Of a DNA stretch of 64,000 bases, positions 6,735-57,000 are shown piece after piece. The position numbers and the translations under genes are program-made. The notes under the pieces were generated by a model. That model saw only the letters and a program-made list of their open reading frames with translations, did not search any database and was not told where the DNA came from. This DNA comes from Sabellastarte sp. h YS-2021 (taxonomy: Eukaryota > Annelida > Polychaeta > Sabellida > Sabellidae), in assembly GCA_964017235.1 (NCBI GenBank), contig OZ024936.1, forward strand, positions 16,530,496 to 16,594,495. Reading direction: 5' to 3'. Numbering within the stretch: position 1 is the first letter of the stretch; each line of letters starts with the position of its first letter.

Positions 6735-6743
6735 TAATTGTCA
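6735..6743 (-). promoter_or_regulatory. Gag stop with readthrough-type context TGA-CAA-TTA, copy A
   Basis: AAA-TGA-CAA-TTA follows the RG-rich Gag end. The frame stays open past it through TECKLKCCLSCSMC, AVAKERHKP and CPTCQQCPSCC to the reverse transcriptase region. It fits STOP-CARYYA. Confidence 0.72.
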
Positions 6744-16100: not shown

Positions 16101-19100
16101 CGCCGTGCAAGAGCCTTCATCTGGTTGAAGTCTTTACCATTGTTCTCGTGCTGGTCAATCATCAGAACTAGGTCCATATCGGCATCTGAAAGAGGAGCAG
16201 AAATGCAGAAGTAATTTCACATTATAAAAATATTGTAACTCTAGACAGTATCAGGGCCTCAATGCATCTGATATCAATGGCTAGATTCTAGCAAGGGCTC
16301 TGACTGGTTACCTGTGCACCAGTGTTTGGAATTGGCTTCAATTTTCCAGATGGGCTTTTTCCTCCCCATTTTGGGGAGTCAACCAATGACTGAGTCAGAA
16401 TAAACTGTTCACTTTATTTTTCTTGGTTGTTATCGCATAAAAACACTTTCCAGGAAGTATACACTGATGGTTTTAAATATTAAATATCTTCCACTTACAA
16501 CTTCTTTCTGTAACTATAGCAGCATACATAAATAAAACTAAACTATCAATTTATTGTACCAAATAGTTCAATATATGACTTCAAAGATGATCAAAAAGAC
16601 TGGATATTTTGTTATTGAGGAAAGTAATGTTTCTGTAAAATCATGGATAGACTTTTTCAGAAATATTACATCAATATCTTGTTCTGACTCCCCAGGTGTC
16701 CCTTCAGGCACTGTTTACTTGTTATTGTGAGGCCTCTTTGGACATCACAATGATTTCTGTTACCTTAATGATGTTCTTGTGGAAACTTACACGAGTTGTA
16801 ATTGTAGTGTTCACACCTATCTCCCTGGAAGCCGTGCTGACACTGACAGTAGAAGCCATCTCCTGATTGCTGACAGACTCCGTCATTCTGACAGGGACTA
16901 TCACTGCAGCTCGGCTGATCTGAAAACAGAGTTACCTTGAAAACAGTGAATGGTAAAAACTAGTATTTCATTGGTTGAGGTTTGACAAAGACAAAATTGC
17001 AAATTTAATAAGTAAATTACATTTTTATAAGTTAATACCCTATCCAATGGACAACTGCTTTACCGGTCGGCGCCACAGGTCCCGCCGAATGTCAGAAAAA
17101 GACGTCCTGTAAAAACTGTATACGCCTTTCTTTTGTGGCAACCTGGTGACAATATGAGCATTTGCAACACAAAAGTCTACATTCAAATTTACAGTCACTT
17201 TCTTGTCCCCGGCTACCACTGGAGTAGGGTTCAAGCCTGTCTGACCGGTAACACAAACAGAGTTCTTCTGACCGGTCACAGAATTTACACAGTGACTGTC
17301 ATTTACATGGCTTGGAACCCTAAGCCGGCTTGGAACCCTTAGCCTAGACTCGTAAGGGTGGAAACGACCCTGACGTCTGTGTGACTGGCCGACAGAATGC
17401 CTTTCCTCACTTCTGCAGGTTTCTTCCTCGGCCTTGGTGATAATCTGGTCCGGGAACAGTGAGTTACAATGTACTTGGACGTTCTCAAGGTGTTCAGAGT
17501 GTCTTGCTTCACACCAGCATGCAAATACTCCAGATAACTCTCCCTGCGCGCCAGTGTGAAATTCGCCATGCTAATGAACACTCCTTCCGAAAAATCTTGC
17601 ATAGACCTGGCCATGGCTTCAGAGATAGATCTGTTGAAAGTTACAAGATAATCTACTTCATCAACAGCCTGCTTTATTCTTTCACACGGCTTCCCTTCTT
17701 GTCCAGATGTAGGGTTTTCAACTGAGAAGACATGGCATCTTGAACCCTAGTCAAACACCTTGACAAACCAGCAGCCTGATTGCACTTAACAGTCTGTTCA
17801 TGTGCTGCTCTCTCCCAACACCTGAGCATGTCCTGGCTGAAGGCCCGGGAGGGTGGGGCAGAAGGAAGGCTTCTACGTGCAACCTTATTGAAGGAATGGT
17901 TGAGCTTGGTCGGTTTCGGTGACCAGGTGCATACTGTGGTGCTCTCACAGTCCTTCTTCTCAGCATGCATCCCATACCATCTTGACGATCTGGGTGGTTT
18001 GATGAATTGATCTTTGAGGAGGCCAGCTATGTCAGTATTTCTTGCCGGATACCCTTCTGTGATGGTGAGGTTAAGTTTGTCTATCTTTCTGCATAACCAG
18101 TCGTCTACCGGGAGTTTGGCTGACACTTTACCGGTTGGATGGGTACGTGTACCGGCAAAAGGGTTGTCAGCAGAAGAGGACACTGTCTCGAACTCTGGGA
18201 TCTTGTGCCAACCCATAAAACTTCTCACACCTCTCATTGTCTCTCGATAAGTTCCTGATCCTGCAGCCTCTTCCCTGGGGAGGTCTCTATCTGGGGACCC
18301 GTACTGGAAGTTATCATCAGATAGAGAACCATTAACACTGTGTTGGTCACCCTCACTATCAGATGCTGCACAGAGATGGCTAAACATCAGGGACTGAACC
18401 GGGGGCCTGAACAGGCTGGGTTGCTGTCCCAGCACCGGGAGCCTCAGAAGGCTGGGTGGCAGTCTTCATCTCATCTACAGCCTCACCGGTGGCCTGAACA
18501 AGGCTGGGATCGGTATCTCTCTAGCCAGACTGCTGGTGCTAGCACCAGGGTAAAAAAATGGCTTCTGGCTGGTGGTGACTTCTGCTGCTGGTTTCACAAC
18601 CGGGTCAACCGGTACAGTGAAGGACTTGGCTAACAGCATAGCTTCCAGCCGGGAGAACTTCTCTGCCCATTTATCATCTAACTTCTGCAGGTCGTCTGCT
18701 GAAGGTCTGCTACTGGAGCTTGATTTCTTCTTGGAGGCAGAGGGCTTGGGTGAATGACTGTGTTTGCTCTTCTTTGCAGCTGGTGTGGTTTCAGGCTTCA
18801 CAGCCTTGTCCCCCTCCACTTTACCCAGCACACTCACGTGTGAAGGGTCCATGAGAGTGGGAGCTGGGGAGGACAAAACCAGTTTCTTCTCTTTGCTCTT
18901 AGGTTCCCTGTAAGTGGGGGTCGCCAGTTGTAAAACTTGCTCTGGGGTGAACCCTTTGCAAACAGTACAGTCTTTCTTGAGAACGCAGTTGTCTTCTCCA
19001 ACTCCCTTGTCACAACACCTTGCACATTTCAAATGGCCATCAAAACTAGCCATAAAATGGCCACATGTGCCGCGTCTTTGTCCTGGTGAAGACATGATCG

Positions 19101-22100
19101 TAGAGAATTCAGTAGAAATACTTGGAAGTAAAATTAAGCTGGATATATTCGTTGTAGAAATAAAAGTTCGTCCACACTCTCCACGCACCAAACGAAAAAG
19201 ATGCTGTGACGTCATGCTGTCTAGACAGGAAGGAAGTACGATGCGCCACCTGGTGAATACACTCTCCTGACCAGTCCTGCCGGTATTATATACAGGACAT
19301 CTTTTTCTGGCGCTTGGCGGGACCGGTCGCGCTGACCGGTAAAGCAATTGTCCATTGGATAGGATGTATTAACGCAATAAAATTTAAATTTTTCAAAACC
19401 TGTGGTACACTTAAGGCTTGGCACAGTAGGCCACCCACTCGCAAGTTTGCATATGGATGTTATTTTCTGCATTTCTTTCCATACCTGTCCAGTACTTGAG
19501 TCGGAAGCCCCTGTTTGGGTAGTTCCTATGGTACTGAGATCTGAACAGAACCATCACCTCACTGATTGAAGACGTCAGAACAGAAGGCCGATTGGAATTG
19601 CAAAACCTAGAAACATACAGACATTTGGTGTTTTAATTTTACTTATTTATTTCACAAATACTCTTTCCCTAAGCATTCCAGTTATATGGGTTCATATTAT
19701 AACAAATGACCATCAGATTATTTACAGTGTCTTTACTGCAGAATAATGCATCTCAAAACAGTTTGACATGTCACTTCATTTTATCACTCACATGTGACCT
19801 CTGTTATATATTATCATTTACCTGTGATCTGTTATATTTAATCACTCACCTGGGACCTCTGTTGTACATATCATTCCCCTGTGATCTATGTTGTATTTAA
19901 TCACTCACCTGGGACCTCTGCTGTACACATAGATTCCCCTGTGATCTATGCTGTATTTAATGACTCACCTGGGACCTCTGTTGTATGTATCTTTGTCTGC
20001 CCTGATTTCGACCCAGTGGTAACACACACCTCCATAGTCATATATCCCAAAGTCACCAACAAAATCCATCTTCACATGGTAGCCCTGTGGTGCCTTAAAA
20101 ACAAGCAGTCCCAAATGAGCTCTATATCAGCTGTCTTGCAAAGAGCGATAATTCTTGAATGACAAAGCACATTGAGAACAAAGTAAAATTTGGGGTTTTA
20201 TGGCCCTGTTACTTTATATAAGGACAAACCTTCAGTAAATCCAAAATGAAAGCATGGAAAGGCTTTGAACTCATTGCCCAAACAGAGAGAGAAGGAGGTG
20301 ATTAAATTCCAACAGTGTTAAACCTCAAGAACAAGTAGACCCAAATGAGCACTGTGTCAGCTTTTTAACAAACAAAAAATAGCATCAAAGATGCCAGTAC
20401 TCCACACCCTGGGGAAACAGTTTTCAATACCATGAGATATAGAAGTAGTGAAACAGTACAAAGACCGGTATACTTTCAGCGCAGTGTCATTTATAATCAG
20501 GTACAAATAATGTTTAAGTAGAGAAAATAACATCCAAGAGAAAGAAAATGTATGTAAAGATAAAGTACTAAAACAAAACAATTCAATAGCAAGATGACCG
20601 CATTAATCAGTAAACTAAAAAATTTGAAGCTGTAAAATTTATTGATTGGAGAATAGCTGGTAATGGAATTAGCAAAATTATGTAAAAGAGTATATAATAC
20701 ATATAAAACGTAATCAGTTGCAGCAATCCATATATCTTTGTCATAAGAGAAAGATGTCTCAAATATGGCAGGTGAACACACAGCGAAAAGGTCACACCAT
20801 GATGCACACCTAGACCCCTTAACCAATGTCCCTACCAAGTGTCAACCTTCTACACATTATGGAATCCAAGAAATAGCCCATATAAGACTTTAAAATTCAT
20901 GGTCACCATGACCAGGTCAAAGACCAAATCAAGGTCACACCATAACGTTGCACACCTACAACCCCTAACCAATGTCCCTACCAAGTATCAACTGCCTTAA
21001 CACCTTACAGTTTCCAAGATATAACCCAGACAAGATTTTATAGGTCAAGGTCACTACGGCAAGGTCAAATCAAGGTCACACCATGACTTTGCACACCCAC
21101 ACCCCCTAACCAATTTCCCTACCAAGAAACAGTTTCCTACACCTTGTGGTTTGCGAGATATAGCCCAGACAAGATTTTATAGGTCAAGGTCACTACAGCA
21201 AGGTTAAAGTAAGGCCAGATCATGACGCTGCTCACCTACACACATGTCCCTACCAAGTATTAACTTCCTGTACCTTATGGTTTCCAAGATATAGCCCGGA
21301 CAAGACTTTACAGGTCAAAGTCACTACGGCGAGGTCAAGGTTACACCATGATGGTGCACACCTACATCTCCTAACCAATGTCTCTACCAAATATCTACAA
21401 CCCCCGGACAAGACTTTATAGGTCAAAGTCACTACGGCGAGGTCAAGGTTACACCATGATGGTGCACACCTACACCTCCTAACCAATGTCTCTACCAAAT
21501 ATCTACAACCCCTAACCAATGTCCCTACCAAGTATCAACTTCCTACACCTTACGGTTTCCAACATATAGCCCAGACAAGATTTTATAGGTCAAGGTCACT
21601 ATGACAAAGTCTAAGGTCAAATCAAGGTCACACCATGACATTGCACACCTACACCTCCTAACCAATGTCCCTACCAAGTATCAACTTCCTACACCTTAAG
21701 GTTTCTGAGATACAGATGGACAAACTTTTTCCCGCCGCACGCCCGGACACCTACCCACCCCCCCATCCGGACACCATGGGTGAAAACAATACCCCAACAG
21801 CCCTTAAGGGATGTGGGGTAAAAATCAGAAAACTTTGGTTATCTTTTGGTGTGTAATTTAACACTGCTATTTCAAATTTATACCACACAGCATTACAGAA
21901 TGAGAATAAAATATTAAATCATGTAGAATTATAATCTCTGGCTTAAGACTCAAGGCTTCAGTGCCACAACTAATCTGTATTAAAGCTTAGCAGTCACTGA
22001 TTGCTTGTATTGATATTTGATATTCTCATGCTGATAATGCTAAATTACACCAGGCCACTCCAGCTTGCATAGGTAGTGGCTAATGGCTAAAAAAGAACAG

Positions 22101-28100: not shown

Positions 28101-31100
28101 TGGATTTTGATACAACTCAAAAGAGCAGAATGGAAAATTTAATAAGTAAATTAAATTTTTATAAGTTAATACCTTACCTAGTGGACAGATGCATTTGTCC
28201 GGCGCCTTGCCGGTCATGCCAAACATTAGAAAAAAACGTCCTGAGCTGGGCTCTGGCCGGGACCGGTAGCGTCCTGTTCACTCGCCAGGTGGCTGTATAG
28301 TCTCGCTGCCGGTGTACTGCGCACGCGCAGCGCATGCGCTCTTCCTCTTTTTGTTGCCTACCGTAGGAAATCCCCTAGGGCTAAAAATAGCGGGGAAGGT
28401 AGGGAGGGAATCCCCCTGTCACTAGGTAAGGTATTAACTTATAAAAATTTAATTTACTTATTAAATTTTCCATTTTATTGCGTTAATACATCTTACCTAG
28501 TGGACAGATGCAGAATAACTACCCAGTGGAAGGAGGGTAGCCAAGAGGGGAATTCCTCAGAACTCCAAACCATGTATAAGAAGGTGGATCCGGAATGATT
28601 AGAAACCAAATACCTCGGATCACACCTACTGCCCCCCCCCCCCCCCCCCCCCTGTCTTTTCTCAAAAGTCCAGTACTGGCTCGCTAGGAGTACAACAGGA
28701 CTGAGGAGGGTAAAAGTTCTGACTAACGAGGAAGAACAGGACCTATAAGACTATCTCATCAAGCCATTAGCCCCACTTTGGATCGCGGCAGACTAAGGAC
28801 CCAGGATAGTGGAAGAAAGTTTTTTTTTTTTTTTTTTTTTATATAATACACAGTATATACATATGTACAAGCCCGAGGATAAAGGAGCTATTGTGTATCC
28901 TGAATCTGTTGGGCTGCCACCACCGGGCCCAAATGATACAACTCAGAATCTGCCCAGGCCAAGTCTTTCAGGTAAAACTGGGTAAATGTATTATGAGCCT
29001 TCCAGTGACAAGCAGAAAGGATCTGATCTAGAGAAATTCCTCCCTGAAAGGCCCTAGAGGCTGCGAAAGCCCGGACATCGTGGGCTCTGACTTGATGGAA
29101 ATCCTGAGCTTTCTGGTCCGAAAGTTGATAACACAACAGTACCATCTGTTTAACCCAGGAGGAAATGGTGGCCGGGTCAATGTCCTTCTGAAAATCTGTC
29201 TTGAAAGGCACAAAGACCAGTTCCTTTCCCTGACGGGAATCCTTGGTCCGGTCCAGGTAGTAACGTAAAGCCCGTACTGGGCACAGAGACCTGTCCCCAG
29301 ACAAGGACTTATCCAACGTTGGAGCTAGAGCTGGGATGACTACTGGAGCCACTGAAGAGGGTCCATCCCGAGCCAGCTGGTTTTTGGAGAGGAAACTGGG
29401 AGATGGGTACAAGGAAACTTTACTCCAGTCCTCTTGGTGCCTAATATCTTAGCTAACCAGGCATGGATTTCGCTTCTTCTTTTGCCTGACCCCAGGGCCA
29501 AAAGGAAAACCGTCTTAAAGGTCAGATGCTTCAGAGAAGCCTTCCGTAGAGGCTCGAAGGGAGCCTTGGTAAGCTGATGGAGCACTAGCGAAAGGTTCCA
29601 GGAAGGGACCCCTCTTCGACCTTTCGGTTTGTCCCTATGAAAACTGTCTAACAGGCGGGTAAGATTTTCATCTGAGCTTATATTGAGTTTGTCATTACCC
29701 ACCATATCTGCGATGGCTGTCCTATAACCATCAATGGTGCTGGGTTGCAGATTCCTCTCTTTGAAGAGGTAAAGGAGAAAATCCGCAATATGATTCACAG
29801 AGGGTGACCTGAAGTCCACCTTGTTCGATTTACACCACTTGACAAATATGGTCCACTTTGACTTGTACACAGCTCTGGTTGACCCCCTCTGAGGAGCCTC
29901 AATTCGTGCTGCCACCTCTTCAGAGAAGCCGTGTTTCCTGATGGTAGAGCTTCTAGGAGCCAAGCATGAAGATTGAGATTCTGAAGGTTCCGGTGAACTA
30001 GCCCGTTGAAAGGCTGAGTCACTAGGTCCCTTGTTAGAGGAAGGGTGAAGGGGATCTGAACGGATAGGTCCACCAGGTCCCAAAACCAAGGCATGTTTGG
30101 CCAACCTGGGGCAATCAGAATCATCCTGTGACAACCCTGATCCCTTATCTTCGAAACTACCTGAGGGAGCAGGGAGACTGGAGGGAATGCATAAGCGTTC
30201 AGATGCTCCCAGGACAAGCTCAGGGCGTCTACTGCCCAGGCTGCCTGATCCGGGACCGGTGACACAAACCGGGGCAGTTTGTGATTGAACCTGGTCGCAA
30301 ACAAGTCCACTAGCAGTGGGGGCCACCTGGAACACAACTGACTGAAAACCTGAGGGGAGAGAGACCATTCGGTCTGAATCACTTGATTGTGCCGAGAGAG
30401 CTTGTCGGCTATCACATTTAAGCGACCCGGAATGTGTCTTGCCCTTAGCGTTATGCCCCTGTGATGGCACCAGGACAGGAGTCTCCAAAGGAGGGCACAG
30501 AGAGAGCCTGACCTCATACCCCCCTGTTTGTTCATGTAAGAGACCACCGTGGTATTGTCCGTTGCCACAAGAACAATCTGATCCTTGCACAGATGCTCTA
30601 ACTGTCGTAAGGCCAGAAGGACTGCTTTTATCTCGAGAAAATTTATATGAAGGCGACCTTCGAGAGGGGACCAAACGCCTCTTGCAGTGAAGTCTCCTAA
30701 GTGTGCGCCCCAACCTTCGTTTGAGGCGTCTGTAAATAGTTGAACGGCGTGCTGAAGAGGGTGCAGAGGTTGCCCTTTCAGAACATTGTTTTCGTCCAAC
30801 CACCAGTCCAAGTGAGGGTGGAGAGATTGAGGGACTGGGATCACCTTTTCCAAAACTTCTGGGACATGCCAGTTCCTCTTGAGGTGCCATTGCAAAGGTC
30901 TCATGTGAAGTCGACCTGAGGAGACCTGCTTCTCCGTGGCTGTCAAGAGACCTATTAGAGACATGAACTGACGGACGGTACACCTGGGAAGGCTCTTTAT
31001 GAAACTCAACTTCTCTTGAAGGGCTTGCCAACGGTCCTGAGTGGGTAATACCCGACCGGAGATCAGGTCGAACCGGTAACCTACAAAATTGAAGACCTGT

Positions 31101-34100
31101 GTGGGAACCAACTCAGACTTGGTCATATTCACTACCCAACCTAATTCTCGACATAGGTCCAAGAGGATCTGGGTATGCTGTAGGCAGATTTCCGGGGAAG
31201 GGGCTCTCAGCAACCAGTCGTCTAGGTACTGGTGGATCCTGATACCCCTTGCCTGAACCATCAGCTTCACCTCCTTGACTATTTTGGTAAACTCCAGTGG
31301 AGCCGTGGCCAAACCGAAGGGTAGGGCTGTGAACTGGAAAGTTTGCTGAAACAGGAAGAACCTGAGATACTTTCTTGATCTTGGGGCTATGGGGATGTGG
31401 AAGTAAGCGTCGCTGAAGTCCAGCGAAGTGACCGACTCCCCCGTCTTCAAGGATAAGCGGATTGTTTTCGGAGTTTCCATCTTGAATGTGCTGGTACTGA
31501 GAAAGAGATTCAAACGACTTAAGTCTAAGATTGGTCTCCATTTGCCGTTTGGTTTGGGAACCAGGAACAGGCGGTTGTAAAAGGCCAGGGACGACTTCAC
31601 CACTACCTTTTCTACTACCAACTTTCGCATGAGACTTACAAGAGCCTCTTTGAGATGCATGTTTTTGGATGGGTTTGCATAACCACTTTGAACCACTGGG
31701 AACCTGGTTAGAACCGGTCTTTGTTTGAAGGGCAAGGTGTAACCCCGTTTTAGGATAGAGACTACCCGGGGATTTGAACCCATGGCTTGCCAAACTTGCC
31801 AAAATTCCTGAAGTCTGCCCCCTACATTCTGTTCGGAGACAGCACTGGGGACACTGGGAACAACAGGGGCAAAAACACAAGGATCTACACAAAATACACT
31901 TTTGACTGACTTTATTTTGTTCAGACAATTGCCGGGGCTTACTCCTTTCTTTTGCGGATGCCCGTGTGAAAGAACAGAACGAACAGGACTGACAACAGGA
32001 CAATACACAGCCAGACGATTCTTGGTTTTGAACAATGGAACACTGTTTACTGTCTGAAAATTGTCTAAGCTTAGATTTGCAGACACACTTTTGTCCTGAC
32101 ACTGAGGGTCCAACTGAATCTGATGTACTAATTTGACTGTTGGACCACCTAGATAATTGTCATTTATATGGCTTAAAGGACTGCCCTTTAGAAAAACGGG
32201 GGTTAGAACCCCGACCACGTCCCCTTCCTCTGGAACGATTTCGGCCAAACTGTCTCCATGGCTGACTTTGCTGTTGAGAGGATTGGTCAGTGGAAGATGT
32301 TTGTTTCCTATCCTTACGGTTGTAAGGCTTATATCTTTGCGTACCCTTCCAACTTGCGTGCTGAGTAGCACCCGGTCCGGGCCTCTGAGCAATGCTACTA
32401 GCTTCAAACTTTTGGATATCCTGCTCTGCAGACATGATGGCTGCATCAGGGAAGAGACCGTAGCCAAACAAGGGAGCATTCTGCAGCAAATTCATAGTAT
32501 CCTGTTTAACGCCCTGCTTCACAAAATCAAGATATGAGTCTCTCCTTAACAGAACTAGATTGGCCATATTCACAAACAAACTGTCCGCCAAATGCTGAAG
32601 AGACGTGCCCATGGCCACCGACACTTTTTGATGAAAGGCCATGAGGTCACGCAGGTCATTCAAAGCATTGGCCACGTCCTTTGAACACTTTCCTTTGCCA
32701 AGACGAGAGGACAACAGAGTAATATTCTGTGACATCTTCTCCTGAAGTTCGGTGGAACAGCGACTGAAGCCTGCCGCATGATTGATGATATAACTGTCTT
32801 CACGTGCGGCACGCTCCCACCTGCGCAGGGATTCTTGGGCAATAGGCCTGGAGGGAGGGCCTGTGGACGGGTAAGCAGAGGCACGAGTTATCCTTGGGAA
32901 ATGTGAATTAACCTTGGCCTCAGTGTTTCTCCAGTTGAAAACAGAATGACCAGGACGATGTGGCCCGTCAGACTTAATCAGGTGCATCTTGTACCATTTC
33001 TCCTGTGACTTTGGCACCTTGATGAACTGGTCACGTCTCAAACCTGCGGAATCTTGTGAGCGAGAGGGGTAACCCTCTGCGATAGTGAGATTTAACCTTT
33101 CCAACTTCTGGCACAACCAGTCGTCAGGGGGCATGGCTACTGAGATGCGTGTGGGCTTTCTTGGGTTCTTCCCTTTCCAAGGGTTATTTGACTTGTCCGG
33201 TTCTGAAAAGTCTGTTTCAAAGGCCGGAATGTGGTGCCAACCCATAAACGCTCTCACAGAAGGTACCGTCTCCCTGTAAGACATATCTTCAGTCTGTTCC
33301 GGTGGATCTGCAACATCAGAAAAATGACCGTCCTCAGAACCGGAAGCAGACCGGTCCAAATCATCGTCAGATACTTGTTCATACTGTTCTTGAGGAAATG
33401 CACAGGCACTGGCACTGGTAAAATCAAGACTGGTATCCTGTTCCGGTGGAGCCATTGGAGTGGAAGATGCAGACTGGAAAAGAGAACCGGAAGACTTTTT
33501 CAAATCCTGACTCTGGCTAGACCTGTCCCCTTTAGGAACAACTGACTGATGGGCAGACTCCAGACCGGAGCTGGCACCAGGCAAAGGGGAAGAAGAAGGA
33601 GCTTTAGTTTTAGACCTTGACACCGGTGAGGGGGACTGGTCACGACTTTTCTCTGGTTTGGAAACATCTTTGCTGCTCTTAGATTTAGATGAAGATTTGG
33701 AGTCACTTTTATCAGAATGTTTGTCTTTTCTGGATTTGTGCGATTTCTTCTTATCTTTGGCATCTACCGGGGTAGCAGCAAGTGGAGCCTCAACAGCTAC
33801 CGGTACCTTCACCGGACTGGTGGGACGGGTAGCTGGAGCTAAGAAGGGGTTATCAGAAATGAGATTCTGAGTGTCGACCGGCTTGACTGAAGATACAGGA
33901 GTGGAAAACACGTTACCTCTAGAAAGAAGTGCCTCCATCCTAGCAAATTGCTCTGACCATTTATCTGCAATGGCTGTTAACTGGTCTGAGGTAACAAAAC
34001 TAGCCGTCTGTTGAGATGAAGAAGGTGGAGTAGAAGGGGGGTTAGCAGAAGACTGAGCCTGTTGGCCAGAAGGAGATTGAAAAGTTGGTTCACTATCCAT

Positions 34101-37100
34101 ACTTTCAACCGGTTGTAAAACAGTAACTTCCTTTGGGGAAACTAACAACCCTGCTTTCTTGTCTCTTCTAATTTTATAAATTGGAGTGGACAACATATCC
34201 TTCTGGGCCGGTGTAAAGCCATCACAAATCTTACACGGCTTGTCCTTCACACAATTGTCTTCCCCTATAAGCTTTTCGCGGCACCGCGCACATTTGTCAT
34301 GTAAGTCGAAAAGAGCCATAACATGGCCACAGGAACCCCTTCTTTGTCCCTTCTTATCGCCCGGAGATGCCATGACACTTCTTACACACAACTAACACAA
34401 ATATTTTAAACAAAGAGCTTGAGAAGAAGTATATAAATTAATTTTTAAAAGTTTCTCTTAAATCCCAAGCGTTCTTCATGCGCCAAACAAAAAGAGGAAG
34501 AGCGCGTGCGCAGTACACCGGCAGGGAGACTATACAGACACCTGGCGAGTGAACAGGACGCTACCGGTCCCGGCCAGAGAACAGCTCAGGATGTTTTTTT
34601 CTAATGTTTGGCGTGACCGGCAAGGCGCCGGACAAATGCATCTGTCCACTAGGTAAGATGTATTAACGCAATAAAAGCGCTGTTTCAAAACGTTTCTAAT
34701 GATATATAATACATATTTGTGGGTTACATAGTTTCTGAGATATTAGTGAAAAACTGGAAGTTATTGACACTAACGGTCCATGGTATGGAGGTACCTTTGT
34801 ATATGAATAAGATATATACCCGCTCCGTATATCCCCCTATATGGATCAAATACGGCTTGCTTTAGATAACAAATAATTACACCACACACTCACCAGTCCT
34901 GCTCTGCCTGGGTAGTGCATGAGCGAGGTGTAGTCATACTGGAAGCCGAGAGAAGTGACCAGCGAGTAAGGGTAGAAGTTGGACTCGTAGCCGTTGGGAA
35001 TCTTGTCCTCGTTGATGGTGATGTAGTCGTTGCTATCACTGCGCTGGTGTTCGTGGATGAAACCCAGAGCATGTGCAATTTCATGCATCACAACTACCTA
35101 TAGGAGTTTAAAGCATACTAAATAAATAAGACAATATTGGGTTTTTTTCATAAGCTAAAGAATATATATTGGCTTTGATATAAAAGAAACCCATATGCTC
35201 TCACTTCTAGAGATCACATTTTTTTTTTTTTAAACAGATTCTGAATTGTGCACTACTCTTGTTTCTTATTGCTTTGAAGCTCGTGGATGTAAACCGAAAT
35301 AAATTTAGCTTTATTTTCAGCCAAGTTAAACATATTGGAAGGAATTAAGTTACAGCATTCTCATAAAATGGACATAATGTTGCTTTTGTCACCATAGAGA
35401 TTGCTTGAGATTCCCCCTCACTCAATCTCTATGTCACCATTTCCCCATTACTCCCTGTAGAAATAATTCAAAGTCATTCACTTTATATTCACTGCAAATG
35501 AAGTTTATTAACTTCAAAATATCTCACGAAAATGTCTTTGAAAAATATGTGTATCTATGGTTAAATATCAGTGGTGTAAGCATATCAAATACCAGAATTT
35601 ATTCGGTTTCAAAGAAAAATTGGTTTCCTTGACCGGAACTGGTTCAATTACTAAACCTTCTTAAAATCATACACAATACAAACCAGCTCTATACTGACCT
35701 TATTGCAGTAGTAACTCAGAAAAACAGGCTGTTTGTTCAGAGTTTTTCCAAGATAAGACTTGCATCTGGAAGACAAAAGAAAACCAATAAAATAGTTTAA
35801 ATTTCATTGTAACATGATACGGCTGTGTCCTCGATTCTGATTGGTTAAGAACCCCCCAGTAAAATTCCTTGTATACTTGCTGGTCAAAAGTAGGCTATTC
35901 CATCTACCAAACATACGTGCACATACGACCTGGTCACAGACAAAAATCAACTAATTTGCAAGGGACACTAAAGCTACATGTGCGATTTTATAACAGAATG
36001 TCAAGGTAGTAGGGACCCCACAATGAAAATTGGCACCAGCTGGTACCGATTGTACAGAGTATTCTGACTAGGGTCAGCATCATAGCTCGCAATATCATGG
36101 ATCTTTCAAGGTGTATTATTAATGGATGATATCGAGGAGTTCCGTTAATAGTACAATAATGTAATTTTATAGGGCAATATGCTGTAGAAATGGACCGCCA
36201 TCAATGACTACCAGCCTGACATATCCATTAGTGCCCGAGGCTTGCCGTATTGTATTAATAGTACAATAATGTAATTTTATAGGGCAATATGCTGTAGAAA
36301 TGGACCGCCATCAATGATTATCAGCCTGACACATCCATTAGTGCCCGAGGCTTGCCGTATTGTATTAATAGTACAATAATGTAATTTTATAGGGCAATAT
36401 GCTGTAGAAATGGACCGCCATCAATGATTATCAGCCTGACACATCCATTAGTGCCCGAGGCTTGCCGTATTGTATTAATAGTACAATAATGTAATTTTAT
36501 AGGGCAATATGCTGTAGAAATGGACCGCCATCAATGATTATCAGCCTGACACATCCATTAGTGCCCGAGGCTTGCCAAGGGCACTAATGGATGTGAAAGG
36601 CTGATAATCATTGATGAAGGTCCATTTTTACAGCATATTGCACATAAAAATTACATTATTACTATTATTACTAGCCGAGTTTCATATAACTGGACGTTGT
36701 ACTATTCAAATATAATGTTGTGACATCATATAACTAGAGGCTGATAAAAATACGTCACCATGAAGTTTTGTTTTGAAGTGTATTTTGTATGTTTTTCTTG
36801 CCGTAAACAAGAACCATTTTTTCACAATAATCAGTTAAACCCACTAACAAATTCTTTATAACATTGGAAAGATATAATTTCAATGCTTTTTTCGTTTTTG
36901 TTGGGTTTAAATCCGTGCAGTAATAAGTGTGACATTGCATGTTAAAAATTTCAAGTGAGAGTACAATTTTTGTAAACAAATACTTGGTGACGTCAGAACC
37001 CAGTCAATAATGCTCATTATTGGACCACGGACTGGCTAGCCGTAAAATACTGTGTTTTTATAGACTCGATTCTGCACTGTTAATCCCCTAGTAACGCACG

Positions 37101-40100
37101 CTCAGCTAGTAATAATGGGCGATAATATCGTTGAAATTGAAAAAACAAGCAAACATGCAATATACTACCAACCTAAAACCCCATATTCCAACAAATATTT
37201 GTTATCCCAAACAAAATATAACCAAAAACTTCACAATTTTTCATTTTGTGATGTCAACAGGGAGTACTAGACAGGAAATGAAAAACAAAATGAAAACTAG
37301 AAATAGGACGCCCTGTTGCTTGTAGCTGCGACATATGAATAGAAACAGGATAGCATAGAAGAACACACATTATCATGTGTAATGTCCACCCTATCAACCT
37401 TTTGTTAAGAAGATAGAAGCAAATTCCTGTTTTTCTATTTTTGGCAAAAATTCGAAAATTCAAAATGGCCGCCATTTTTGGGAAAAGGAAAATTTTTTGA
37501 AAATTGCCAAGAGTACATTTCTTAGATACCCTATGGGTCGAAAATTTCAACGAAATAACTCTATTTTGCACGGTTAAGGCCAGTTTGTGTTTTTCCATTT
37601 TTGGCAAAAATTCGAAAATTCAAAATGGCCGCCATATGTGGGGAGGGGAAAATTTTTGGAAAATTGCAAAGAGTACATTTCTTAGATACCCCTTGGGTCG
37701 AAAATTTCGCCGAAATCGCTCTATCTCGCACGGTTAAGGAGATAGAAGCAAATTTGTGTTTTGCCATTGTTGGCAAAAATGCGAAAATTCAAAATGGCCG
37801 CCATTTTTGGGGAGGGGAAAATTTTTTTAAAATTGCAAAGATTACATTCCTTAGATATCCTGTGGGTTGAAAATTTCGACGAAATCGCTCTATCTCGCAT
37901 GGTTAAGGAGATAGAAGCAAATTTGTGTTTTGCCATTTTTGGCAAAAATTTGAAAATTCAAAATGGCCGCCATTTTAGGGGAGGGGAAATTTTTTTTAAA
38001 TTGCCAAGAATACAATGCTCAAACACCTGTGGGTCGAAAATTTTGACGAAATCGCTCTATCTCGCACGGTTAAGGAGATAGAAGCAAATTTGTGTTTTGC
38101 CATTTTTGGCAAAAATTCGAAAATTCAAAATGGCCGCCATTTTTGGGGAGGGGAAAATTTTTGTAAAATTGCAAAGAGTACACTCCTTAGATACCCTGTG
38201 GGTCGAAAATTTGGCCGAAATCGCTCTATCTCGCACGGTTAAGGAGATAGAAGCAAATTTGTGTTTTGCCATTTTTGGCAAAAATTCAAAATGGCCGCCA
38301 TTTTTGGGGAGGGGAAAATTTTTGTAAAATTGCAAAGAGTACACTCCTTAGATACCCTGTGGGTTGAAAATTTCGACGAAATCGCTCTATCTCACACAGT
38401 TAAGGAGATAGAAGCAAATTTGTGTTTTGCCATTTTTGGCAAAAATTCTAAAATTCAAAATGGCCGCCATCTTTGGGGAGGGGAAAATTTTTTAAAAATT
38501 GGCAAAAGTAGAATTCTCAGATACCCTGTGGGTCGAAAATTTGGCCGAAATCGCTCTATCTCGCACGGTTAAGGAGATGGAAGCAAATTAGTGTTTTGCC
38601 ATTTTTGGCAAAAATTCGAAAATTCAAAATGGCCGCCATTTTAGGGGAGGGGAAATTTCTTTTAAATTGCCAAGAATACAATGCTCAAACACCTGTGGGT
38701 CGAAAATTTTGACGAAATCGCTCTATCTCGCACGGTTAAGGAGATAGAAGGAAATTTGTGTTTTGCCATTTTTGGCAAAAATTCTAAAATTCAAAATGGC
38801 CGCCATTTTTGGGGAGGGGAAAATTTTTTGAAAATTGTAAAGATTACATTCCTGAAATACCCTGTGGGTCGAAAATTTTGCCGAAATCGCTCTATCTCGC
38901 ACGGTTAAGGAGATAGAAGCAAATTAGTGTTTTGCCATTTTTGGCAAAAATTCGAAAATTCAAAATGGCCGCCATTTTTGAAGAGGGGAAAATTTTTGGA
39001 AAATTGCAAAGAGTACACTCCTTAGATACCCTGTGGGTCGAAAATTTTGACGAAATCGCTCTATCTCACACAGTTAAGGAGATAGAAGGAAATTTGTGTT
39101 TTGCCATTTTTGGCAAAAATTCTAAAATTCAAAATGGCCGCCATTTTTGGGGAGGGGAAAATTTTTTGAAAATTGTAAAGATTACATTCCTTAAATACCC
39201 TGTGGGTCGAAAATTTTGCCGAAATCGCTCTATCTCGCACGGTTAAGGAGATAGAAGCAAATTAGTGTTTTGCCATTTTTGGCAAAAATTCGAAAATTCA
39301 AAATGGCCGCCATTTTTGGGGAGGGGAAATTTTTTTTAAATTGCCAAGAATACAATGCTCAAACACCTGTGGGTTGAAAATTTTGCCGAAATCGCTCTAT
39401 CTCGCATGGTTAAGGAGATAGAAGCAAATTAGTGTTTTGCCATTTTTGGCAAAAATTCGAAAATTCAAAATGGCTGCCATTTTAGGGGAGGGGAAATTTT
39501 TTTTAAATTGCAAAGAATACAATGCTCAAACACCTGTGGGTCGAAAATTTCGACGAAATCGCTCTATCTCGCATGGTTAAGGAGATAGAAGCAAATTTGT
39601 GTTTTGCCATTTTTGGCAAAAATTCGAAAATTCAAAATGGCCGCCATTTTTGGGGAGGGGAAAATTTTTTGAAAATTGCAAAGATTGCATTCCTTAGTTA
39701 CCCTGTGGGTCGAAAATTTCGACGAAATCGCTCTATCTTGCACGGTTAAGGAGATAGAAGCAAATTTGTGTTTTGCCATTTTTGGCAAAAATTCGAAAAT
39801 TCAAAATGGCCGCCATTTTTGGGGAGGGGAAAATTTTTGGAAAATTGCAAAGAGTACACTCCTTAGATACCCTGTGGGTCGAAAATTTTGACGAAATCGC
39901 TCTATCTCACACAGTTAAGGAGATAGTGATGGGACGATTAGACCAACGTTCGATTAATCGTCGGCGTTATGGTACAATCGCGTTCGGTCACTGACAACTT
40001 CTAGAAATAGATTAAATCTTACCCTTCCTTATGTGTCTCAATATCCACGTGTTTTTTATATTTTAAGCTATTTCCTTAACTTTCCTTTGATAAATAATGA

Positions 40101-43100
40101 GATTTGTCACGAATTTGGGTTTCTTTATGTCTACCGCCATATTTACCGGAAGTGAGTGCTTTTGGTAGGTTCTAAATGTCGGAAACACCGTTATTCTTAC
40201 GGATTGACAAATACTTCATCCCGGAAAGTCTTTCATAATATATTTTCTTACAGTGGAGTAAAAAAATTGATTAAGGGTCGATCATCGGTCGGAAAATTGG
40301 ACGAATAATCGACCGCGAAAATTGAGGCGATTCCACTCACTATAAGGAGATAGAAGCAAATTTGTGTTTTGCCATTTTTGGCAAAAATTCTAAAATTCAA
40401 AATGGCCGCCATTTTTGGGGAGGGGAAAATTTTTTGAAAATTGTAAAGATTACATTCCTTAAATACCCTGTGGGTCGAAAATTTCGACGAAATCGCTCTA
40501 TCTCGCACGGTTAAGGAGATAGAAGCAAATTTGTGTTTTGCCATTTTTGGCAAAAATTCTAAAATTCAAAATGGCCGCCATTTTAGGGGAGGGGAAAATT
40601 TTTTGAAAATTGTAAAGATTACATTCCTTAAATACCCTGTGGGTCGAAAATTTCGACGAAATCGCTCTATCTCGCACGGTTAAGGAGATAGAAGCAAATT
40701 TGTGTTTTGCCATTTTTGGCAAAAATTCGAAAATTCAAAATGGCCGCCATTTTTGGGGAGGGGAAATTTTTTTGAAAATTGCAAAGATTGCATTCCTTAG
40801 ATACCCTGTGGGTCGAAAATTTCGACGAAATCGCTCTATCTCGCACGGTTAAGGAGATAGAAGCAAATTTGTGTTTTGCCATTTTTGGCAAAAATTCGAA
40901 AATTCAAAATGGCCGCCATTTTTGGGGAGGGGAAAATTTTTGGAAAATTGCAAAGAGTACACTCCTTAGATACCCTGTGGGTCGAAAATTTTGACGAAAT
41001 CGCTCTATCTCACACAGTTAAGGAGATAGAAGCAAATTTGTGTTTTGCCATTTTTGGCAAAAATTCTAAAATTCAAAATGGCCGCCATTTTTGGGGAGGG
41101 GAAAAATTTTTGAAAATTGTAAAGATTACATTCCTTAAATACCCTGTGGGTCGAAAATTTCGACGAAATCGCTCTATCTCGCACGGTTAAGGAGATAGAA
41201 GCAAATTTGTGTTTTGCCATTTTTGGCAAAAATTCGAAAATTCAAAATGGCCGCCATTTTTGGGGAGGGGAAAATTTTTTGAAAATTGCAAAGATTACAT
41301 TCCTTAGATACCCTGTGGGTCGAAAATTTCGACGAAATCGCTCTATCTCTTACGGTTTCTGAGATATTAGCAAATTACTCAAAAGTAGTACTGAAAATAC
41401 ACAATGAAGTACCTAAATGGCTATTACTCATGTACTGACAAAGCTATCAGTCCCAAATGCAATACCAAGCGAGCTATGGACATAACAATCTTGTATTCAA
41501 AATTGTAGTAAAATATCTTTAATTATTTTGGCTTAAATGCATGGAAACCAATGGGTACTGAAAATAGCTGTACTTAAGTATTACTCAGTAAGCAAAAGAG
41601 GTACAACAGCCAAAAGCAATCCCAAGCAAGCTACTGACCCAATAAGCCTGCATACCAAATTTGGTGACAATAGCTCTAATACTTTTCCTTTAAATGAGCG
41701 GAAACCATGCGTGACGCCGGACATCGGACGCCGGACATCGGACATCGGACGGCGCAAAAAGCAAAAATAATATATCCACCCCCCAGGGGGGTGGACATAA
41801 TGATGTCAACAGGAAGTGAAAAAAAAAATGAAAACAAGTCGTCTAAACTGCTTTATTTCTTTAAAAATGGCAAAATGTGTGTACTTTTACAATATTGCAA
41901 ATTTAATAAGTAAATTAAATTTTTATATTATTTATATTTTATATTAAATTATTTTATTGCGTTAATACATCCTATCCAATGGAAAATAGCTGAATAACTA
42001 CCGCTTGGTCGGTGGATAAGTAACTAGGGACTTGAGTGAACTCATAATATAATTAACAAAATTCCCATTTAGGCCTGGGTCGACCTTGAGGTCAGGAAAC
42101 CATTAAGGCCCTAGTCGGTCAACAGAAACCGGTCTAACCTGACTTACCTCCCCCCCCCCTTTTTTCAGAGACCTGCTCAGAGGTATGTGAGAAGAGGAAT
42201 GAGTTCAGTCCCATAGAAATAAAACCTCCCGAAGGAAGCACGTCAGAGTTTTTTATTTTTTTTGTTGCTTCTTAACTATACATATACAATATATACAAGG
42301 GTACACCATTCACGTGTGTACTGATCTCCTCTCAGATCCGGGTTGACGGTGGATCTGCTGAGCAGCCACCACTGGGCCCAGATGGTAGAGCTCCGAATCA
42401 GCCCAAGCCAAATCCTTCAGATAAAATTGTGAGAAGATTTTGTGTGATTTCCAATGGCAGGCTGACAAAATCTGTTCCAAAGAGACTCCAAAGGGCTTTA
42501 ACCTGATGTAATGTGTGGGCCTCCTGGTCAGAGAGCTCATAGCATAGGATCACAGTCTGTTTGATCCATGAGGAGATAGTGGCAGGTGAGATGTCTTTGT
42601 CGAAACCTTTCTTAAAGGAGACAAAGACCAATTCCTTGTTCTGCCTGAGGTCCTGTCCAAATAGTAGCGTAATGCTCTGACTGGACAGAGGGACCTATCA
42701 GACTTCTATCCAGAGTAGGAGCCAGGGCTGGTATAACCACCGGGGCCACACTGTCTGGACCCTCTTTGGCCAGCTGGTTTCTAGAGAGGAAGCTGGGTGA
42801 TGGATACATCTGGACATCTTTGACCAGTCAGATTGGTGTCTGATATTTCTGTTTTGTCAAGCATGAATCTCACTTCTACGCTTGCCTGAACCCAGGGCTA
42901 AGAGGAAGACTGTCTTGAATGTTAGATGCTTCAAAGGGGCCTCTCCAATTGGTTCAAAAGGAGCCTTTGTCAGCTGGTGTAAGACGAGAGATAGGTTCCA
43001 TGACGGGATACCCCTTCTACCCCTGGGTCTGTCTCTATGGAAACTGTCCAAGAGACGAGTGAGATTTTCATCTTTGCTGATGTTGAAGGGTAGATTACCC

Positions 43101-46100
43101 AACTTATCCGCAATGGCTGACCTGTAACCATCAATGGTGCTGGGTTGTAACTTCCTGTCTTCAAAAAGGTACATGAGGAAGTCAGCAACGGACTTTACAG
43201 AGGGTGCCCTGAAGTCCACCTGATTAGTGTTGCACCACTTTGTAAAAACGGTCCATTTTGCCTCATAGACTGACCTGGTTGATCCCCTCTGAGGAGCCTC
43301 AATTCTTGCTGCCACTGCCTCAGAGAAACCCTGTTCCTTGATTGCTGTGGCTCTAGGAGCCAAGCATGGAGATTTGGGTTTGTCAGGTTCCTGTGAGGGG
43401 TCTGATTGAAGGGTTGAGTCAGAAGGTTGGGCAGATTGGGCAGACTCAGTGGGATCTGACTGGACATGGACACCAGATCCCAAAACCAAGGCATGTTGGG
43501 CCACCCCGGAGCAATCAGAATGATTCTCTTGCATGGGGAATCTTGTAATTTCTCTGCCACTTTGCCCAATATGGCTGTTGGTGGGAAAGCATAGGCATCC
43601 AGATCCTCCCATGGCAGACTGAGGGCGTCCACTGCCGTGGCTAGGGGGTCTGGAACAGGAGACATAAACTGAGGTAACTTGTTGCTGAACCTCGTGGCAA
43701 ACAGGTCTATCCTGGGGCGGTGCCACCTGCTGCATATAGTCTGGAAAACCTCTTGCAGGAGGGACCATTCCGTCTGGATGGTCTGGCCTAGTTGGGATAG
43801 CTTGTCTGCTACCACATTTAGTCGGTCAGGATTTGAGAGTTACTTGATGTCTGGTGCACCAGGTCAAGATTCGCCATAGAAGGGCACAAAGTGGACCCGA
43901 CCTCATGCCTCCCTCCTTGTTTATGTAAGACACTACCGTAGTATTGTTGGTTGCTATGAGTACTATTCTGTAGGCACAGAAATCTCTGAACTCCTTTAGT
44001 GTTAGAAAGACCTGCCTGGGGTCAGCAGCAGTACAAATGACAGTTATTGTATAAACAAGTGTTCAATTCTAGGTAGTTTATATGCAGTTTGCTCTCTGGT
44101 AGGGACCAAGTGCCTCTTGCAGTACGTTCGTTCAAGTCAGTGCCCCACCCTTCTTTTGATGAGTCTGTAAAGATCTGCAGAGCATGTTGTATTGGGTGTA
44201 GTGGTTGGCCTACAAGGACATTGTCCGCCTGAAGCCACCATTGTAGGTGAGGGTGCAATGATCTGGGAATTAGAATCACTTTCTCTAGTGACTCTGGCAC
44301 CCTCCAGTTGTATTTGAGATGCCACTGTATGGGTCTCATGTGTAGTCTGCCTAAATGAACTTGTTTTTCTGTAGCTTTGAGCAGACCTATCAGAGACATG
44401 AACTGCCGGACCGAACAGGTCGGTAGGGACAGTATTTTCACTATTTTCTCTTGGAGGTTCTGCCACTGGTCCGGTGTAGGTCAGACCCGAACAGCTCTGA
44501 GGTTGAACTGGTAACCTACAAAATCGAAGATCTGCTTGGGTTCCAGCTCCGACTTGTCCAAGTTCACTAACCAACCTAACTTTTGGCATATCTTTACTAG
44601 TTCCTGAGTATACTGGAGACAGACCTGGTGGGATTTGGCTCTCACTAACCAGTCGTCTAGGTATTGGTGGATCCACCTCTTTTTCACCTCTTTTGCTACA
44701 ACAGTGAACTCCAAGGGTGCTGTGGATAGCCTGAACGGGAGGGCCTTCAATTGATATGTTTGACCCTGGACATGGAATCTTAGGTATTTCCTGGATTGTT
44801 CCTGTATTGGTATGTGGAAATAGGCATCCTTGAAGTCTATTGAGGTGACCCACTCCCCTTGCTGTAGGGATGTCCTGATGGTTTCCGGTGTCTCCATTTT
44901 GAATTTCTCCGTCTTGAGAAACAAATTTAGGTTGTGAGGTCTAAGATAGGCCTCCACTTGTTGTTTGGTTTTGGGACTAGGAAAAGTCTGTTGAAAAAGC
45001 TCAGAGATGTTTTGTGCTTTACTAGTTCCACTACATTTTTGTCTATAAGCTGATGTAATGCCTCCAGTAGGTAGCTGTTCCTCTGGGGATTGACATGACA
45101 GCTTATGACTGTGGGAGACCTTGTGAGTTTTGGCCGGATCCGAAAGGGAAGCGTGTAACCTTCTTTCAGGATTTGAACTACTTTCGGACCGGCACCCAGA
45201 TTCAGCCAAGTTTGCCAAAAGTTTTGAAGTCTGGCCCCTACAGGCAGATTGAAGGCAACATTTGTTACATTTGAGACAGGATTGACACAAGAACAATTGA
45301 GTGACACAAGAAACACTTTTCACAAATTTTAATAGAGACTTTTTTGACTGACATTCTGGCACTCCGGGACTTATACCTTTCCTTTGTGGAAGCCCGGGTG
45401 CAGAAGGAACACAACATGAGACTTTACATTTGAAATCAAAAGATTGTTCATTGTCTGTTCTGTGGGAGCGTTCTGGGTCAGCAGCTGACTTGAACACCTG
45501 TTTATACAATAACTGTCATTTGTACTGCTGCTGACCCTGGGCAGGTCGGGATGAAAAGCTTGAGACCTTGCCCCTGCCTCGTTTGAACTGTCGTCTGTTA
45601 ATGTTCTTTCAGGCAGGTCTTTCTTGTTTCCCCTCCGACCGACCTTCTTGCTTCCTGTCACTCCTTTCATAAGGGTGATAACGATTCTTAATGCGTGATG
45701 TGGTAGCCGTGGGATGGCTCTTGTTATCATACAAAGCAATTTCTTCTTCGGCCTTCTTAACAACTGACTCCAAGAACAAGGTGGCAATGTGGAGGGGGCC
45801 TGTCCTGAGAGCTGCAAAGGTGTCTGGTTTGACCCCATTCTTCAAGTGGCTGAGATATGAGTCTCGGCGGGTCAAGGCAAGGTTTCCCATAGTGATAAAC
45901 ACAAAGTCCGTTAAGTGTTCCATTGCTTTTGCCGCCGCCTGTGTAATGCTAGAGTTAAACTCCATAAGGAATTGCAGTTCTTCAGTGGCTTCAGACAACT
46001 TGTTGGAAACTTTACCCTTGTTGTCTCCCCGGATAACCTTGATCTGTGTCTGCATATCCCCTTGTACTTTAAACAAGCATCGGTTAAAGCTTGTGGTTTG

Positions 46101-54000: not shown

Positions 54001-57000
54001 TCTTTTTTCTGGAGGTCAGTTGACCCCCTCCTTTGAAAACCGGGGGTCAATCAAAATTTTTGAGGGTCAGTTAGGCTTGACCCCCTTCTACTTAAACTGC
54101 CGGTTAGAAAAATAATGGACAAACAATACCTAAAATACCTTAAAAAGACAGTGTGTGTGTTAGAGTTACGAAATGTGGGGTACCATGTACCCATGGGCCA
54201 TCGAATATGGGGTACAAGTGATATTCTGCCAGATTTTCCTCAAAAAACAATGTTTAGATACACCCAGTTACTAAAAAGCAATAAATCAGATTTAAATTTA
54301 TGACTTTGAAAATAAATTATAGTACACTGTACATTGTTGTACATTCATAAAAATATCTGAAGGTATATCAGGGTAAAGAAAACAGTCAAAAAATACATTT
54401 GAATTTTTCCTCTTATTTTTGGATGATTTTTAAGGTAGCAAAAATGAACAGAAGCACTAATGAACTACTGAATATAGTATATGTTGATAGTTTCTAAAAA
54501 ATTATTTTATATTTACACTACAAATATGATATCTATACTGTTTGAAAGACAAATTATTGTAGTTTAAGTTGCTTTTTATTTGACAAAAATCCATTGAGTG
54601 GTTCCAAAGTTACAGTGATTTTGCTACAACCCCTGTAAATATTTTTGAATTTCAGAGGTAATATTTTTCCGGGGTTAAATATTCAAGAATTTCCGAGATT
54701 TAGTAGAACGTATCCCCCCTGCACAAGGTATATTTGTCATCGTTCGGAAACGTTGTTTCCAATGGTGTCCTGGCACAGATCACCTTTTCTTTCGATATGT
54801 AACGTTTCGAATAAGATTTGCACGGGTACATTATAACACTGGCCGTCGAAGATGGATCTGCGTAGCTCTCATCTCACATGAAATTTTAAAATATATAGCT
54901 TATCTTCAGTGCTGTTTTTATTGCATGTGCATCTATCTTTCATTAAAAAATAAATCTCGAGTCCTTTCTTGACTAACGCGAATGCGCATGCGTGACCTCG
55001 TGAACTCTTCACCTCTCGACCTTTTGATCCCACGCATGCGCATTGACAGGTAAACAAACAGGAAATCGGCCATTTTTGTTTTGAAATTGGAATAAATAAA
55101 GAATTGCTGCATATATTGACGAAATATCAGTATTTCTTTTTACAAATACTTCTGCGTCAGTCTGACGCTCAGTTAAATATTATGTGCGTAAATCGCTTGA
55201 TGTCGACGTAAATTTACGCACGTTTGTGCGTAAACGGAAACACTGAGGGTTCCCACAGACTTTTGATAACTGGATTCAAGGTCTTTCCAAGGATTTTCTA
55301 GGCCAACAACAACCATTCTCAAGCATATATTTTAAGCCACAGCCTCCTTTACCTCCCCTTCTAGCCATCCGTTCCTCCCACAAAATTATGGTTTTTTTTC
55401 ACTTGATTTTTTTCCCACAGCCTAGGGAAATATTTTCAACACTATGAGATATAGAAGTACTGTACCAGTACAAAGTTCAGGATACTTTCAGATCACTGTC
55501 AGTTATATAAAGTTCCAAACAATGTTTAAATGGAGAAATTAATGTTTAAAAGAAAGATAATGCATGTAAAGATGAAGTATTAAAACAAGATAATTCAATA
55601 GCAAGATGACAGCATTAATCAGTAATTTAAAACTAAAATTCAACACTCTTTATCTACATCTGTGGTAACACTCTCGCCTCCCACCTCTGAGGCCGGGGTT
55701 CCATCCCCATCACGGCCTCAAGTGGGAAAGCTGGTAGTTGCTTGCCGTTGGTCGGCAGTTTACAGTACAGAACCCTAACAAACTCTATGTACTGGTTTTC
55801 TCTGCCCTTCCAACTACCCGTCGTGATATGACCTGTACAGTGTTGAAAGCGACGTAAAACCCCAAATAAATCAATAAATAAATTATCTACATCTGCATGG
55901 CCAAATTATGGTTTAGATGTTTTGAATATTACCATGCATACAGAAGTGGTAATACATTCAATGAATGCTTATGTGTGGTGTTGGAGCAAAATCTGTGGCT
56001 CACTTGATGAAATTCTATCTCTTACAATGGGAAGCTATGAAAGTAAAATTCTTAATAAATTCTAATATGAATTAAAAGTGCTTAATCTGCATCAAAAGAC
56101 AGACCCAAAGGTGCAACAAGATTTTAAAGGTCAAGGTCACTACAAAAAGGTCAAATTAAGGTCACACCATGATAATACACACCTATAGCCCCTAACCAAT
56201 GTCCCTACCAAGTACCAACTTCCTACACCTTACGGTTTCCGAGATATAGCCCAGACAAGATTTTATAGGTCAAGGTCACTATGGCAAGGTCAAAGGTCAA
56301 ATCAAGGTCAGACCATGATGCTGCACACCTACACCCCCTAACCAATGTCTCTATCAAATATCAACTTCCTACACCTTACAGTTTCCAAGATATAGCCCGG
56401 ACAAAATTTTATAGGTCAAGGTCACTACAGCAAGGTCAAAGGTCAAATCAAGGTCAGACCATGACGTTGCACACCTACACCCCCTAACCAATGTCCCTAC
56501 CAAGTATCAACTTCCTACACCTTACAGTTTCCGAGATATAGCTCGGACAAGATTTTATAGGTCAAGGTCACTATGGCAAGGTCAAATCAAGGTCAGACCA
56601 TGACGATGCACACCTACACCCCCTAACCAATATCCCTACCAAGTATCAACTTCCTACATCTTACAGTTTCCGAGATATAGACCGGACAAGATTTTATAGG
56701 TCAAGGTCACTACGGCAAGGTCAAAGGTCAAATCAAAGTCAGACCATGACATTGCACAACTACACCCCCAAACCAATGTCCCCACCAAGTATCAACTTCC
56801 TACACCTTACGGTTTATGAGATATAGCCCACACAAGATTTTCAAACTCAAGGTCACTACGGCAAGGTCAAATCAAGGTCAGACCATGACGTTGCACACCT
56901 ACACCCCCTAACCAATGTCCCTACCAAGTATCAACTTCCTACACCTTACGGTTTCTGAGATACAGCCCGGACAAACTTTTTAACGCCACCCGCCAAACCG

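Follow-up and report, generated by a model that had tools for sequence, protein, structure and literature searches.

A conserved TGA-CARYYA context at the gag stop of DIRS1-like retrotransposons suggests readthrough into the tyrosine recombinase frame

In the window, by which we mean the whole 64,000-nucleotide stretch of DNA that was analysed, the gag gene of a DIRS1-like retrotransposon ends in a TGA stop followed by CAATTA, and both stop and context are retained in most related copies of the same genome. We consider it likely, with a probability of roughly 0.8, that this is a programmed leaky stop at which UGA readthrough of the tobacco mosaic virus (TMV) type would yield a fusion of Gag, a Cys-rich domain and a tyrosine recombinase (Gag-Cys-YR). 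Conservation of the motif, selection on the Cys-rich domain and the open frame behind the stop all support this reading, which comes from the comparison of related copies.

Structure of the focal element

The focal element (28129-34676, minus strand), delimited by inverted repeats at both ends and by its open reading frames, is DIRS1-like by its repeats and enzymes. Its inverted terminal repeats have arms of 156 nt (left 34502-34657, right 28173-28328) that are 96% complementary to each other. An internal complementary region at 28420-28512 consists of two arms (28420-28474, 55 nt, and 28473-28512, 40 nt) that are each 100% complementary to one element end (28129-28183 and 34637-34676, respectively) and that join at 28473-28474, the circular junction.

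The gag gene (32163-34373, minus) is an open reading frame of 737 codons with 164 protein relatives, and a His/Cys-rich stretch near its N-terminus (CGHV...CARC...CKIC, 34224-34331, minus) is a possible zinc finger. The pol gene (29798-32491, minus; reverse transcriptase (RT), RNase H and a methyltransferase-like part) is open in the +1 frame, with strong selection only from about position 31825 downwards. Its RT matches RVT_1 at E = 1.2e-21, exceeding the cut-off of that model, and its RNase H matches RT_RNaseH at E = 5.4e-4, under the cut-off; the methyltransferase domain 3' of RNase H gives only a weak Dam match (E = 0.28, below cut-off). The frame that follows the gag TGA is that of the tyrosine recombinase (YR), for which the best integrase-type matches of three full-length relatives have E values of 2.1e-3, 4e-4 and 5.3e-4, all under the curated cut-offs; the C-terminal block of the YR is highly conserved in the alignment of relatives. 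The remaining part of this frame 0, including the YR, lies at 29343-31112 (minus) and is frameshifted near its end in the focal copy, as judged against relatives.

Conservation of the gag stop and its context

The end of the focal gag frame reads TAT AAA TGA CAA TTA, with the last codon AAA at 32163-32165, the stop at 32160-32162 and the hexamer at 32154-32159 (all minus), and the +1 pol frame is open across it. The nine bases from the stop onwards, TGACAATTA at 32162-32154, are also found at the gag ends of copies A (6735-6743) and Z (453-461), while the copy at 42.3-47.7 kb, of family C and called E in the earlier note, carries TGACAGTTA (45510-45518) and copy B carries TGACAGTCA (17293-17301), all on the minus strand. 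That note had reported these five gag ends as all fitting STOP-CARYYA, and its sequences proved correct. Families are named D for the focal copy and A (with A2 and A3), B, C and Z for the other window copies. The window copies have diverged to 37-58% amino-acid identity with the focal gag, yet TGA-CARYYA is present in 5/5. At even base use CARYYA has a chance of 1 in 512 per site, and its occurrence at all five homologous gag ends is not chance. Across the window as a whole the nine-base stop motif is not enriched (9 matches against 6.66 expected, with 9 reached in 16 of 100 shuffles).

Other features of the window are an EGF-like sequence (CSDSPCQNDGVC...CQCQHGFQGDRCE, about 16800-16910, minus) downstream of the decayed end of copy B and several tandem arrays. 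One array family with a 169-base unit occupies 37286-41487 and 59671-60428; further arrays have units of about 110 bases (36145-36686), 133 bases (58802-59764) and 146/139 bases (56116-56985), the last being related to 20743-21735.

The earlier note had suggested comparing the stop among related copies. Using each of the five window copies as a query, we collected 129 copies with DNA, the five included, all from one genome; about 40 copies were scored per query out of 43 to 4667 candidates. The site was located in 91 copies as a near-motif ([AT]AA, [TG]GA, [CT]A[AG][CT][CT][AG]) in the expected stretch, in 18 B copies by [AC]AATGAC, and in 20 Z-like copies by alignment, preferring a near-motif within 25 bases. 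With these finders, which skipped no copy and lean towards the motif, the gag stop was TGA in 124/129 copies, the hexamer was CARYYA in 123/129 and both were present in 119/129, spanning five families; stop and context are thus kept. The family states are CAATTA in D, A, A2, A3 and Z, CAGTTA in C and CAATCA in B, such that family-wide changes fall only at the R (family C) and at one Y (family B), as expected from the claim that variation stays within these positions. Exceptions at the stop are GGA (L057, an A2 copy), TGC (L119), TGG (L120 and L122) and TAA (L124), and six copies have altered hexamers (L036, L085, L089, L102, L106 and L122). L119, L120, L122 and L124 are Z-like, and since the last three are distant matches (70-72% identity), a Z-like lineage without TGA may exist. 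Such a lineage would be a natural comparison for the copies that keep the TGA.

Departures from the family majority have frequencies of 0.000-0.044 in the hexamer and 0.000-0.063 in the TGA, versus 0.021-0.214 in the 24-base stretch preceding the last gag codon. In a tree built from 91 copies, TGACARTTA as a whole underwent one change on internal branches against a mean of 3.8 per gag third position, in an alignment that is imperfect just upstream of the stop. Counted without alignment, the codon immediately 5' of the stop is AAA in 126/129 copies. In a set of 109 copies it is AAA in 107, while the lysine codons of the 32 codons upstream are AAG 197 times and AAA 52 times. The window Z copy has TAA at this position and 19 of the 20 other Z-like copies have AAA. 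Database gag proteins with an RG-rich end have a C-terminal K in 51/54 cases.

The frame behind the stop

Frame 0 of the focal copy stays open for 348 codons past the TGA. It comprises a linker 3' of the motif (32010-32153) with no amino-acid constraint seen in either frame, a Cys-rich domain in the gag/YR frame that overlaps the start of pol (31824-32009; in 68 copies from six groups, 14 columns are Cys at ≥90%), and the first part of a spacer between this domain and the YR (31116-31823), which overlaps RT and is kept open although its sequence is not conserved (all minus). The in-frame TGA that ends this run (31113-31115, +1047) is limited to the focal copy (L001) and L014 among the stops listed (at most four per copy), and in the close copies L012, L015, L018 and L024 frame 0 has no stop in the whole 1.9 kb of DNA fetched past the gag TGA. 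According to the earlier note, the frame continues open into a Cys-rich segment in every window copy. This holds for the focal copy; the others are Cys-rich, partly in shifted frames, and copies A, B and C have indels or frame loss downstream of the gag stop.

A protein search with the frame past the TGA returned 505 relatives, of which 120 were listed, many of these with lengths of 940-1106 amino acids. Database relatives span the Cys-rich start through the YR, and 12 of 13 aligned relatives extend to the YR end. The strict Cys pattern is present in 54 of the 120 listed relatives, and many others have their start within the domain, past it or in a different frame. Neither Pfam (at E 10) nor PDB gave a match to the Cys part of the focal copy. 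Two scans of viral contigs found no relatives.

We estimated dN/dS with a dual-frame method, from ten chosen pairs for whole regions and from 18 representatives of six groups for a finer split. Many copies being decayed, 68 of 109 were kept for the latter after dropping 21 without the full Cys pattern and 20 with an early frame-0 stop, and the representatives, none of them a Z copy, were drawn from these. All intervals are too narrow because codons were resampled over pairs that share copies. Among the ten pairs, gag before the overlap gave 0.18 in the gag frame and 0.74 [0.59-0.94] in the pol frame, the latter being what the method returns for an unused frame; the 335 bases of overlap upstream of the stop gave 0.22 and 0.87 [0.73-1.05]. 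From +3 to +329 the values were 0.55 [0.44-0.71] in frame 0 and 0.87 [0.68-1.08] in the pol frame, and from +330 to +999 they were 1.08 and 0.14. Codon-position counts from 11 chosen pairs likewise place the switch to pol near +330, and pol, the +1 frame, shows a selection pattern opposite to that of the gag/YR frame past the TGA.

Within families, the linker evolves without constraint in either frame (1.25 in frame 0, 1.77 in pol), such that the first 19-48 codons past the TGA are unconstrained, and none of the 18 representatives has a frame-0 stop in it. The first Cys cluster follows with a frame-0 dN/dS of 0.10 [0.02-0.26] and the second with 0.28 [0.13-0.47]; values between the clusters are 0.79 and 0.75, and behind the second cluster pol falls to 0.53 [0.33-0.77]. 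The Cys domain is therefore under purifying selection in frame 0 within families. The earlier note had named dN/dS past the TGA as a test of its proposal, and the outcome is largely in its favour: within families the Cys domain has a ratio far lower than 1, but the second cluster reaches 0.79 [0.38-1.63] between families, and the closest copies give no signal. Among 30 close family-D copies, frame-0 synonymous changes from +3 to +329 make up 5/26 variants shared by at least two copies and 7/42 singletons, versus 79/153 and 147/611 in gag, where a signal is present.

The A-rich stretch between the Cys clusters (AKER...NK, 31911-31955, minus) is kept in both frames and might be a second recoding signal or a dual-coding constraint. 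Farther downstream, frame 0 over the RT overlap contains 0, 0, 0 and 2 stops in the four of six copies that could be tested, against 20.8, 19.7, 23.1 and 25.0 expected when pol codons are shuffled synonymously. This stretch is therefore kept open despite its unconserved sequence.

A frame-0 ATG precedes the Cys domain in only one of 24 family-D copies, and in three D copies listed the first one lies at +621, behind the domain. Because 23 of the 24 lack such an ATG, translation of the Cys domain in D needs readthrough, frameshifting or splicing. Of these, we favour readthrough given the readthrough context, the open but variable linker and the continuous frame. Counting against readthrough, all 16 kept copies of family A have a frame-0 ATG inside the Cys domain.

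Entry into the pol frame

Pol-frame ATGs occur upstream of the stop in 30/30 D, 17/22 A and 3/8 A2 copies, but no pol-frame ATG is common to all groups tested, the linker and Cys region included, and no clear pol-frame selection was seen upstream of the gag stop. Across the linker, 64/68 copies have an open pol frame, while 68/68 have stops in the third. With one representative of each of six groups, such openness has a joint chance of about 8e-5 under a Markov null, yet it is unsurprising given the frame-0 codons in a codon-shuffle test, and openness over the first 109 pol-frame codons was not significant in six copies (P 0.06-0.30). These patterns suggest that pol is entered at or near the gag stop; support for this is moderate because a null that keeps the frame-0 codons often yields an open pol frame. 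Pol may need a second recoding step, and AAA-UGA-C could also serve its entry. Since both frames vary little between the Cys clusters, translation of pol may already be under way there. The A-rich island in the Cys domain is a less likely frameshift site into pol, since AAA-G is missing from some protein families, with Q instead of E in P0064.

Sixty-eight pol-frame proteins extend far enough for the site of the gag stop to be compared. N-D stands at the expected distance in 59 of them (33 clusters at 90% identity), and is followed by [NS][YHQ] in 59/59. Of the nine without N-D at the site, P0134 and P0138-P0140 start behind it, the others being P0161, P0170, P0208, P0235 and P0314; in P0225 the N-D that fits is the second, preceded by a different one.

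Alternative explanations

The context might be kept solely for the N-D-[NS]-[YHQ] that it specifies in the overlapping pol frame, with no recoding at all. In many copies pol does stay open across the stop, and the uniform residues of the pol-frame proteins agree with this. However, Y, H and Q are exactly the residues of the sense codons YAN, and N and S exactly those of ARY; pol dN/dS upstream of the stop is no lower than where pol is not open; the linker downstream is without constraint in either frame; and selection on the Cys domain acts in the other frame. Moreover, a T-to-C change at the first Y of the motif would be silent in both frames, but T stands there in 91/91 of the first copies. 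Because the residue sets are translations of the motif and pol-frame selection is not clear upstream or in the linker, a constraint at the nucleotide level would fit better than pol-frame coding, and the preference for AAA at the last gag codon also points that way. We regard the purely coding explanation as very unlikely.

Alternatively, the UGA might serve mainly for +1 frameshifting at AAA-UGA-C into pol, the frame-0 product arising otherwise than by readthrough. The nearly invariant AAA, which runs against the preference for AAG upstream, speaks for this, as does the linker that is open in the pol frame and never in the third, and in Euplotes a poorly decoded stop has been proposed, in the sections consulted of PMC5009743, to allow +1 re-pairing. 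Against this, CARYYA is a readthrough context and the Cys domain is selected in frame 0, the open linker is unsurprising given the frame-0 codons, openness over the first 109 codons is not significant, and upstream AUGs in the pol frame are present in all D and most A copies, though in a minority of A2. We think it improbable that frameshifting is the main function. The least probable alternative in our assessment is that mRNAs which are spliced or start internally supply YR and pol, the gag stop being an ordinary one. There is precedent, in the material available from each source: a promoter in the junction of Candida Tca2, rather than readthrough, drove a reporter in S. cerevisiae (PMC2194720), and GFP fusions of all three DIRS-1 ORFs could be obtained in Dictyostelium lacking RrpC or AgnA (PMC5633606). 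Such mRNAs would explain neither CARYYA nor the AAA, nor why linker and spacer are free of stops. Leaky scanning was rejected, since the gag of D has 33 AUGs in all frames, and so was reinitiation at the AUG within AAAUGA, where the frame ends after 4-5 codons in the window copies.

Proposed readthrough mechanism

Under programmed readthrough of the gag stop, most ribosomes would terminate at the UGA and release Gag, while a minority would insert an amino acid there, with help from the TMV-type CARYYA and perhaps also from the AAA in front of the stop. These ribosomes would remain in frame through the unconstrained linker into the conserved Cys-rich domain, which is probably zinc-binding, and would continue over the long stop-free stretch that overlaps RT into the tyrosine recombinase. 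The product would be a rare Gag-Cys-YR fusion that could deliver the recombinase to the gag particle. An entry step of its own would be needed for pol, which lies in the +1 frame. No shared RNA structure was found behind the stop in five folded windows (z = -1.4, -0.9, 0.0, -2.6 and +1.4, only B being notable), and we know of no need for RNA structure in CARYYA signals. In HEK-293T human cells, CARYYA after UGA in the OPRL1 context gave about 15% readthrough, with all six bases mattering, in the results consulted of PMC4132726.

A bolder and rather doubtful possibility is that AAA-UGA-CARYYA acts as a three-way switch, in which termination would give Gag, readthrough Gag-Cys-YR, and a +1 slip of the lysine tRNA Gag-Pol. 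It would fit the data because the linker is unconstrained yet stop-free in both frames and the AAA is nearly invariant. A single stop codon would then set the ratio of capsid to recombinase to polymerase, and a stop that also feeds pol would be an unusually compact switch.

If readthrough is confirmed, these elements would provide a case of a retrotransposon with a readthrough-dependent recombinase fusion, and annotation based on ORFs would miss both the Cys domain and the true start of the YR in such elements. The conserved leaky stop that we propose offers a direct and cheap test of how YR and Pol are produced from overlapping DIRS frames.

Comparison with known systems

With DIRS1 of Dictyostelium and its relatives, as described in the sections consulted of PMC3266345, PMC5633606 and PMC9210276, the focal element shares gag, RT/RNase H, YR, inverted terminal repeats and internal complementary regions, and as in these elements its YR frame can overlap pol. 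Overlapping ORFs or domains appear in the corresponding sections of PMC3266345, PMC9210276, PMC6681497, PMC4157794 and PMC5633606; the first of these gives long overlaps in half of 28 elements and no long overlap in Mollusca. What differs is that the three DIRS1-like sources, in those sections, present separate ORFs, with no gag stop in a readthrough context and no frame shared by gag and YR. The word 'readthrough', looked for in that one spelling, is absent from the available text of the five papers. We thus found no description of a readthrough gag-recombinase fusion for the DIRS group in the literature searched, which does not establish its absence from print.

Like TMV-type readthrough, the proposed signal consists of a stop followed by CARYYA and a conserved coding extension. 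The readthrough stop is UAG in TMV and also in the gag of murine leukaemia virus (MLV), whereas here it is UGA and lies in a retrotransposon, with an extension that includes a Cys domain and runs on to a recombinase. Among retroelements, MLV and Candida Tca2, the latter with UGA, resemble our proposal in that a single in-frame stop separates gag from an enzyme frame downstream, although the Tca2 junction alone gave no readthrough in S. cerevisiae (PMC2194720, in the part available). In those elements the extension is pol, whereas here it would be the Cys domain and YR, with pol in another frame.
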